DNA of 64,000 nt, taken from NCBI GenBank assembly GCA_958267355.1, contig OY279575.1, positions 1,100,335 through 1,164,334 on the forward strand, in the 5' to 3' direction. Both the position numbers and the translations under genes were made by a program. This DNA is from an uncultured Alphaproteobacteria bacterium (lineage in GTDB: Bacteria > Pseudomonadota > Alphaproteobacteria > JALCBB01). The notes under the pieces are model-generated. The model ran no database searches and had not been told where the DNA came from. It saw only the letters and a program-made list of their open reading frames with translations. Of this stretch, positions 40,599 through 42,389 are shown in pieces (positions within the stretch are counted from its first letter, which is position 1; each line of letters opens with the position of its first letter).

Positions 40599-40691
40599 CG
40601 GGGAATTGCCTGATAATTTCCTGCTTTTCTCTGTTTTTTCTGGGCAAATTCCCCCCTTGCTTTTACCTGCTACATCCCGCATAATGTCTGC

Positions 40692-40757
40692 AACATCCCC
40701 ATCGCCCAAGGGCGTTGGCTGCAGGGCCGTCTCCTTCGGGAGACGGCTCTAGCTTTT
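40692..40757 (+). ncRNA. Predicted small RNA, copy 1
   Basis: A sigma-70-like promoter, TTGCTT (40657-40662), 17 bases, CATAAT (40680-40685), predicts a start near 40692. The body forms CTGCA/TGCAG around a 9-pair hairpin (40699-40707 with 40710-40718, one T-T mismatch). A 12-pair stem with a TTCG loop (40723-40750) and AGCTTTTTCT end it. No open frame of useful length is present. It could be a trans-acting sRNA or an RNA linked to the downstream NYN gene. Confidence 0.72.
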
Positions 40758-40798
40758 TCTCCCTTGCTTTTACCCAATAGATACCGCATAATAATTGC

Positions 40799-40866
40799 AA
40801 CGTCCCCAGTGCCCAAGGGTGCTGGTTGCAGAGCCGTCTCCTTCGGGAGGCGGCTCTAGCCTTTTT
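40799..40866 (+). ncRNA. Predicted small RNA, copy 2
   Basis: The promoter is TTGCTT (40764-40769), 17 bases, CATAAT (40787-40792). The body hairpin pairs 40806-40814 with 40817-40825. Against copy 1, a T-T mismatch becomes G-C, a C-G becomes T-G and a G-C becomes G-T, so the stem is kept. The terminator stem (40830-40857, TTCG loop) is followed by AGCCTTTTTA. It ends about 30 bases before the NYN start codon. Confidence 0.72.
40830..40866 (+). terminator. Intrinsic terminator directly before the second NYN gene
   Basis: A 12-pair GC-rich stem closed by a TTCG tetraloop is followed by five T residues. Any transcript reaching the NYN gene from upstream must read through this stop, so NYN expression may be limited by it. 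Confidence 0.85.
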
Positions 40867-40895
40867 ATTCCACCTAAATCCACCTACCTATCAAA

Positions 40896-41525
40896 ATGCA
40901 GAAGAAAAAGACATGCGTCTATTTTGACGGGCATAATTTTTTCAAGTACTACCTGAAAGGCCAACCCGCAGGATACAAGTGGCTTGATCTACAAGCCTTC
41001 ATGGAAAACCTTATGGGGGATGAGTACGATATCCACAAAATACACTATTTTACAGCAGGTGTTCTTGACTTCCCCGACGCCAAGGATAGGCATGGAAATC
41101 AACAAACCTATCTTCGCGCACTCAGAACACTTGATACTGTGCATATCGTACTGGGAAAATTTCAAAAATCAAAAGCTCTTCTTCCACTAGTAAAAGAAAA
41201 ATCCCAACGCGCTTATGTATACGCGATAAAAGAAAAACAAACAGATACGAATCTAATCACACAGATGTTTGAAGATGCGTGGGAGGAAAAATTTGATTCC
41301 GCTGTTCTGGTATCAGCGGACTCCGACTTTGTGGCTTGCGTTATCGCCTTAAGAAGACTTTCTGGCAAGGAGATAGGCGTTGCCTTGGCTCGTGGAGAGG
41401 GCAAAGATTTACGCAAAAATGCGTCTTTCATAAAAGATATTCACCCTGGGCTGATTTGTGGCTCGCAGTTTGCCCCAACCCTGCCTGGCAGAAGAAAGCC
41501 CATTCGCAAGCCCCTTGGGTGGTGA
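40896..41525 (+). CDS. NYN/PIN-like domain ribonuclease-type protein (second copy)
   Basis: The 209-residue protein is a NYN/LabA-like PIN-fold nuclease. VYFDGHNFF has Asp11, KEKQTDTNLI has Asp117, and LVSADSDFVACV has Asp142 and Asp144, the expected metal-binding set. A basic C-terminal tail (GRRKPIRKPLG) follows. It is not a close paralogue of the NYN gene at 10508 but shares the fold. It lies directly after two tandem small-RNA units and a strong terminator, a layout recalling type III toxin-antitoxin loci, where a nuclease gene follows repeated RNA antitoxins. That function is inference. Codon use is more AT-rich than in the dehydrogenase genes. Confidence 0.82.
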   Translation: MQKKKTCVYFDGHNFFKYYLKGQPAGYKWLDLQAFMENLMGDEYDIHKIHYFTAGVLDFPDAKDRHGNQQTYLRALRTLDTVHIVLGKFQKSKALLPLVKEKSQRAYVYAIKEKQTDTNLITQMFEDAWEEKFDSAVLVSADSDFVACVIALRRLSGKEIGVALARGEGKDLRKNASFIKDIHPGLICGSQFAPTLPGRRKPIRKPLGW

Positions 41526-41691: not shown

Positions 41692-42389
41692 ATGACTTTA
41701 CTTAACAAACTCTTACCAAACGCAAAGGGGGGGGGGGGGCATCCCTACTTTTAGTAGTATTCGCTACTTTCCTTCTACTTTCTAGTAATCCAGCGAACGC
41801 TGAATTCAAACCTTACATCGGCGGCGATTTCGGTACCCTCAAAGTAGGCTGGGCAGATGGAGAAGATGGAGGCAACTTTGACCACTTCTCCAAAGATCGT
41901 TTTCGTAGCCTAAACTTTCATGTTGGTGCGCGTTTCACGAATCGGTTCTCTGCGGAGCTCGGGTACACAACTCTGGGCGGAAATAAGAAAACTGCATCTG
42001 AGACAGTGGCTGCAAACACAGTCGAAGAAACTTACACGGAGCTCAAAGCGAAGGGGTTTAATATAGATGGATTCTTTCACTTTCCTATCAGTGGTGGGAA
42101 TATGGAAGCACTCGCTACTGCTGGTGTGTTTCGTTGGAACCTGACGGATAAGGGGCACGGTACAACCATAACGAGCGGCTCGAGAGGAGACCCAGAACCC
42201 TTTGACCTCAAGTATAAATATACGGGGCTACGTCTCGGTGGCGGATTGCAGTACAACATCAATGAAAAATTCTCCATTCGTGGCCTGTTGCGCTACTACC
42301 CTCTAAATGGCTTCGATAGAGAAGATGCAGATATAGAAGTTCTTGACAGTGCGTGGGATGCGACAATTGGTTTCAACTTCTCCTTCTAA
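41692..42389 (+). pseudogene. Outer-membrane barrel protein, out of frame at a 13-G tract (phase-variable)
   Basis: The ATG at 41692 (GGAG about 10 bases upstream) opens a signal peptide interrupted by 13 G residues at 41727-41739. In this sequence the frame ends within five codons (TAG). The body, in another frame, reads ASLLLVVFATFLLLSS, a cleavage site NPANA-EFKPYIGG, barrel strands and the terminal FNFSF at 42389. With 14 or 11 G the two join into one intact pre-protein of about 230 residues. It is a paralogue of the barrel at 34717. Either this is a slipped-strand phase-variable gene caught in the off state, or the homopolymer length is an assembly error. A good terminator follows. Confidence 0.82.

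Follow-up and report, generated by a model that had tools for sequence, protein, structure and literature searches.

In the window, as we call the whole 64,000-nt stretch of alphaproteobacterial DNA analysed here, a gene for a predicted NYN-domain RNase is preceded by two tandem units, each with a promoter, a structured RNA and an intrinsic terminator. We found that a conserved structured RNA is strictly paired with NYN genes. This arrangement is most likely an RNA-antitoxin/RNase module that would work like the type III toxin-antitoxin systems. We judge it probable that the module has two components, a structured RNA that binds and inhibits the NYN RNase in trans and a nuclease that is freed when the RNA is lost. 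That the RNA is abundant, that it binds and neutralises NYN, that NYN is toxic, and what biological role the module plays are all inferences on our part.

The two units are 107 nt long, lie in tandem at 40649-40755 and 40756-40862, and are 82% identical to each other. Each contains the promoter pattern TTGCTT-N17-CATAAT that the earlier note had described. On the forward strand it lies at 40657-40685 in unit 1 (TTGCTT at 40657-40662, CATAAT at 40680-40685) and at 40764-40792 in unit 2 (TTGCTT at 40764-40769, CATAAT at 40787-40792), with a 17-nt spacer in both. The -35 and -10 hexamers agree between the copies at 6/6 positions each and the spacer at 12/17, and the longer shared promoter pattern occurs in the window only at these two units, where shuffling gave an expectation of zero. 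RNA unit 1, about 65-70 nt in length (40690-40760, forward strand), has a body hairpin at 40699-40718 and a terminator at 40723-40750, followed by a T-run to 40758. RNA unit 2 (40797-40867, forward strand) has a body hairpin at 40806-40825 and a terminator at 40830-40857, with a T-run to 40865. Measured against shuffled sequences, the folds of RNA units 1 and 2 gave z values of -4.64 and -5.24, respectively, and in these folds the body hairpin is separate from the terminator, with no overlap. The 12-pair TTCG-loop terminator stems that had been claimed are present in both units, and the stem differences between the copies are indeed wobble-compatible. A body hairpin is also present in each copy, but not with the nine pairs described earlier: copy 1 has seven pairs and one mismatch, and copy 2 has eight pairs extended by a 4-pair GCAA/TTGC base. 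The reported changes in this hairpin, from T-T to G-C, from C-G to T-G and from G-C to G-T, are all there, and they keep or improve pairing. The NYN gene, which the earlier note had placed about 30 bases past the last terminator, starts at 40896, 28 nt past the last T-run of unit 2. The spacer between this T-run and the NYN start holds no promoter-like match, and NYN is probably expressed via read-through of the second terminator. A scan of the window with Rfam gave no family at the gathering threshold.

The NYN gene (40896-41525, forward strand) encodes a predicted RNase of 209 aa. NYN (PF01936, E 3e-12) was the sole Pfam result for this protein, and PADLOC identified it as the candidate anti-phage defence protein HEC-09 (E 4e-31), a match also obtained for 27/27 of its aligned relatives. 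The AlphaFold model has a mean pLDDT of 95, and the best Foldseek matches for the model are 2qip (Vibrio VPA0982) and the NYN domains of MARF1. Eleven positions are invariant in 33 homologues, including D11, N14, E113, K114, D117, D142 and D144, and we take these residues to be the ones expected in an active NYN/PIN-like nuclease. The profile, the predicted fold and the conserved acidic active site place the protein in the NYN family and in HEC-09, and we count the NYN fold, as modelled, and the active-site residues among the settled parts of this analysis.

RNA units adjoin NYN genes of the HEC-09 family in Alpha-, Beta- and Gammaproteobacteria, Leptospira, Acidobacteria, Actinobacteria and phage contigs. 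Within the window's own class, the sister genome and further genomes have comparable units of different sequence directly 5' of NYN. We collected 135 usable NYN loci from whole genomes, named genome contigs, plasmids, phages and viral contigs. A scan of the named genome contigs with the window NYN gave no close relative, and a Xanthomonas member was used as the query there instead. As control genes we took, without curated annotation, open frames of 150 codons or more in the same loci, choosing the longest that did not overlap. A strict hairpin-plus-terminator rule was satisfied by 105/135 NYN starts compared with 25/298 control genes, and several of the NYN loci that it missed have wrong start codons or long loops. 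A terminator was present within 130 nt upstream of 113 of the 135 NYN genes, as against 50 of the 298 control genes and 94 of 675 shuffles, and a promoter-like score of at least 9/12 was reached by 63/135 NYN loci and 11/270 controls. A loosened hairpin rule was dropped in favour of the strict one, because 124/275 controls also passed it. Some labels in this census (L010, L017, L074, L242 and L251, for example) were assigned by eye from sequence and folds, without a model match. No member of the main NYN clade was found without the RNA, which in L036 lies about 90 nt upstream. Some outgroup members are without this RNA (L042, L043, L046, L062, L064-L067 and L245). As an observation in its own right, a sister NYN clade without this RNA (L064, L066, L067 and L245, with L062 and L065 in part), which includes a Thermus plasmid, has a common structured element upstream of NYN, GACGCC..GGCGTC followed by GGGCC-GAGAT..ATCTC-GGCGGGG, and this element is possibly a second RNA class.

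The RNA types of the Alphaproteobacteria could not be aligned together by MAFFT, and the subtypes were therefore counted apart. The 40 beta/gamma RNAs of alignment A2 held 124 double-change cells compared with 33 after shuffling, the 14 RNAs of A4, which include both window copies, held 58 compared with 17.8, and the ten RNAs of A5 held 22 compared with 7.1 (0/500 shuffles in each case). Compensatory change in these three alignments was far above both the shuffled and the slid controls. The body helix covaries in every alignment, at 12/12 pairs in A2 and at 7/8 in A4; the terminator helix in the alignments is partly selected, since the RNAs were picked for a visible terminator.

A covariance model built from A4, which we call R2, scores RNA unit 1 at 61.8 bits and RNA unit 2 at 59.4 bits, both units being in its training set. 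We tested R2 on viral-contig NYN loci fetched afterwards, and it matched RNA beside NYN in 20/23 of these new loci (E <= 1e-11). The independent viral-contig matches held 76 double-change cells compared with 22.7 (0/500), in an alignment that was fitted to the R2 model and in which some loci are near-copies. The earlier note had proposed a covariance-model search for co-occurrence, naming an RNA family that occurs without NYN genes as the telling counter-example. Across 385 alphaproteobacterial genomes, all R2 matches of at least 42 bits adjoin NYN or an NYN remnant, and just two RNAs have no complete NYN at their side, one of these being a clear case of NYN deletion. With model R1, all four matches of at least 46 bits in 398 genomes of the window's phylum precede NYN; below about 46 bits R1 matches generic bidirectional terminators, so weak R1 matches were ignored. 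Rfam holds no family corresponding to the NYN-associated RNA.

The RNA part takes several forms. In most members it is a single hairpin plus terminator; the two-unit layout is special to the window's lineage. Two complete units are common in the window's family, occurring in the window, at L014 in the same genome, and at L013 and L009 in the sister genome. L014 (G000 C1:835819-836699) carries a second, distantly related NYN of the window's genome, again with two tandem RNA units, the sequence of which differs from the window's. Plasmids of 4.5-4.6 kb from E. coli, Salmonella and Klebsiella carry hairpins of about 33 nt in tandem, followed by a single terminator and NYN. The array has four hairpins in five of these plasmids and five in L250 (L244, L246-L250), and hairpin array, terminator and NYN together are the classic type III layout. 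Two further arrangements were seen. ColE1-like small plasmids of Klebsiella, E. coli and Salmonella (L017/L018) have a longer multi-hairpin leader (about 917-1127 in L017) with repeated GCGATTAAGTTACGC motifs 5' of the terminator and NYN, and at L185 (G001 contig C7) NYN stands between a hairpin-terminator on its upstream side and a second RNA unit that follows it immediately in the same orientation.

The earlier note had likened the layout to type III systems while pointing to the different toxin. As a conserved genetic association this likeness holds, but membership in the known type III systems does not, owing to the toxin fold. The module resembles ToxIN, CptIN, TenpIN and AbiQ in its structured RNA, intrinsic terminator and following RNase gene, which by their layout would form one unit through read-through. 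It also resembles them in its carriage on plasmids and prophages, and the E. coli plasmid relatives have 4-5 tandem repeats; in the window, two entire transcription units take the place of such an array. Unlike the type III toxins, the nuclease has an NYN (PIN-like) fold, with Pfam and Foldseek returning NYN only and no ToxN/AbiQ-fold toxin. Because the NYN fold differs from the folds of both type III and AbiF toxins, we do not file the module as a type III member. Broadly taken, NYN shares a PIN-like nuclease fold family with VapC and other type II toxins that have a PIN domain. In contrast to these type II systems, the window NYN has no gene for a small protein antitoxin next to it, and the RNA gene lies in that place. 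AbiF-RCd22 of C. difficile is a precedent for a layout of promoter, RNA, terminator and toxin: its terminator sets the RNA over the toxin mRNA, and the ncRNA is reported to neutralise the toxin (PMC12373285). AbiF has been linked to ancestral Cas13 proteins, and the transcript of its RNA, 98-132 nt long, contains two abiF motifs (PMC12373285). AbiF-RCd22 and the NYN module are alike in promoter, ncRNA, Rho-independent terminator, a toxin expressed by read-through and a toxin other than ToxN. They differ in that the AbiF toxin is of the Abi_2 family, while the Pfam scan of the window protein gave NYN only and no Abi_2/AbiD/F domain, and no Rfam match connects the two RNAs.

NYN genes of the HEC-09 family are carried on 441 of 72,556 plasmid records, with 207 of the 441 in Klebsiella, and also on prophages. 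One NYN member is found on plasmids of 10/5,426 E. coli genomes and on no chromosome. The chromosomal distribution is patchy, at 22/385 genomes of the window's class. This carriage pattern would fit a mobile addiction or defence module, short of proof. PADLOC lists the same family as a protein candidate, and the sole paper that we found using the name HEC-09 makes no mention of an RNA; in the one Pseudomonas survey that it reports, HEC-09 correlated with phage susceptibility, not resistance (PMC12447246). Our literature search, with subscription papers and preprints outside its scope, found no experimental study of HEC-09 and no earlier description of a module of NYN and RNA. A member on the Salmonella plasmid pUA1144 was considered as evidence for defence and rejected, because its paper credits phage resistance to other plasmids.

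The position of the RNA could also be explained by a cis-acting leader, with the RNA serving as an attenuator or riboswitch for NYN expression and doing nothing in trans. Most members do run from promoter to hairpin, terminator and gene, with the RNA about 20 nt 5' of the start codon, and the window and beta/gamma branch usually have one upstream RNA unit, which taken alone is also an attenuator layout. The RNA lies in the 5' leader in the window and in other branches, but not in the Actinobacteria. There, on a Paenarthrobacter plasmid as well as in mycobacterial prophages, the RNA is encoded in trans: its gene follows shortly after NYN, is read from the opposite strand and has a TTGACA promoter to itself, so the RNA is not an NYN leader in these members. 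On a Thiothrix plasmid, the RNA and NYN are separated by an extra small gene. Also at odds with a leader are the separate promoters and terminators of the two units at both NYN loci of the window's genome, the lack of overlap between body hairpin and terminator, and the survival of the RNA after NYN loss. In G278 (L165, 1459-1660) the body of NYN has been deleted with the last ~17 codons left, the flanks are syntenic with G185 at 84-88% identity, and the RNA with its promoter is 95% identical over 117 nt to that of G185 (L031), an intact relative. In G242 the RNA (39.9 bits) is likewise present without NYN. An RNA outliving its nuclease, and not the reverse, is what would be expected of an antitoxin-toxin pair, and these are two such cases. 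The opposite-strand RNA of the Actinobacteria, the RNA that survived NYN deletion and the hairpin arrays of the E. coli plasmids argue, from position, that the RNA acts in trans, and we consider a purely cis-acting leader quite improbable.

An RNA acting in trans could instead be a guide, scaffold or activator that forms an active effector with NYN. The RNA and the nuclease are strictly paired, as such an effector would predict, and many RNA-nuclease defence systems act as RNPs. Against this, the RNA alignments have no obvious variable guide-like stretch, the RNA is sometimes found alone whereas the main clade yielded no NYN lacking it, and a terminator that limits nuclease expression fits an excess of RNA; we therefore regard an activating RNA as unlikely. 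The RNA could also be a substrate of NYN in a housekeeping processing pair, or a regulatory sRNA that NYN matures. NYN proteins include RNA-processing enzymes, such as the CRISPR-associated NYN ribonuclease of PMC11346440. The patchy distribution, the carriage on plasmids and prophages, and the divergence of RNA sequences between paralogues of one genome are difficult to reconcile with a housekeeping or maturation role, which we hold to be very unlikely. The main alternative of the earlier note was a pair of ordinary duplicated AbcR-type sRNAs, which would then lie 5' of an unrelated NYN by chance. Two similar tandem sRNA genes in an alphaproteobacterium-like genome do recall such a pair, but the window RNAs match no known sRNA family of Rfam, the R2 matches of at least 42 bits in the 385 genomes all keep to NYN or its remnant, strong matches to the RNA family far from any NYN were not seen, and the association of RNA and NYN recurs across phyla. 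We found this alternative unsupported, and its probability is negligible.

Under the RNA-antitoxin explanation that we favour, a strong promoter would produce an abundant RNA of about 65-70 nt that begins with an A/C-rich stretch, folds into a C-rich body hairpin and ends in an intrinsic terminator. In a minority of cases, transcription would continue past this terminator to give NYN mRNA, and the structured RNA would bind the NYN RNase in trans and keep it inactive. Should the supply of RNA end, because the plasmid is lost or a phage shuts off host transcription, the nuclease, as the more stable partner, would be freed to cut RNA, resulting in addiction or abortive infection. The dose of RNA would be raised in the window's lineage by doubling the whole transcription unit, and in the enterobacterial plasmids by a hairpin array in one transcript.

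More broadly, we lean towards the view that these RNAs form a widespread and so far undescribed family, whose members inhibit NYN RNases in trans as antitoxins. The family would span at least four phyla and hundreds of plasmids and prophages, and would evolve between single hairpins, duplicated units and arrays. If this is true, NYN would be the third unrelated nuclease fold under RNA neutralisation, after ToxN and AbiF, and RNA neutralisation of nucleases would have arisen with yet another fold. A large group of genes annotated as "NYN domain-containing", among them the ones carried by common small plasmids of Klebsiella and E. coli, would then change from unknowns into toxins or defence genes under RNA control, and their mechanism could be tested directly. 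Since Rfam lacks the RNA family and no RNA partner is listed for HEC-09, any experiments done on the protein by itself may have left out its regulator.

A separate observation concerns 41692-42389 of the window. A run of 13 G at 41727-41739, the only homopolymer of at least 10 in the window, lies 35 nt past an ATG. In the assembly, this ATG is in a different reading frame from the downstream open frame, an outer-membrane-like beta-barrel with a signal peptide and the ending ...IGFNFSF. Judged from its sequence, this frame likely encodes a phase-variable surface protein.
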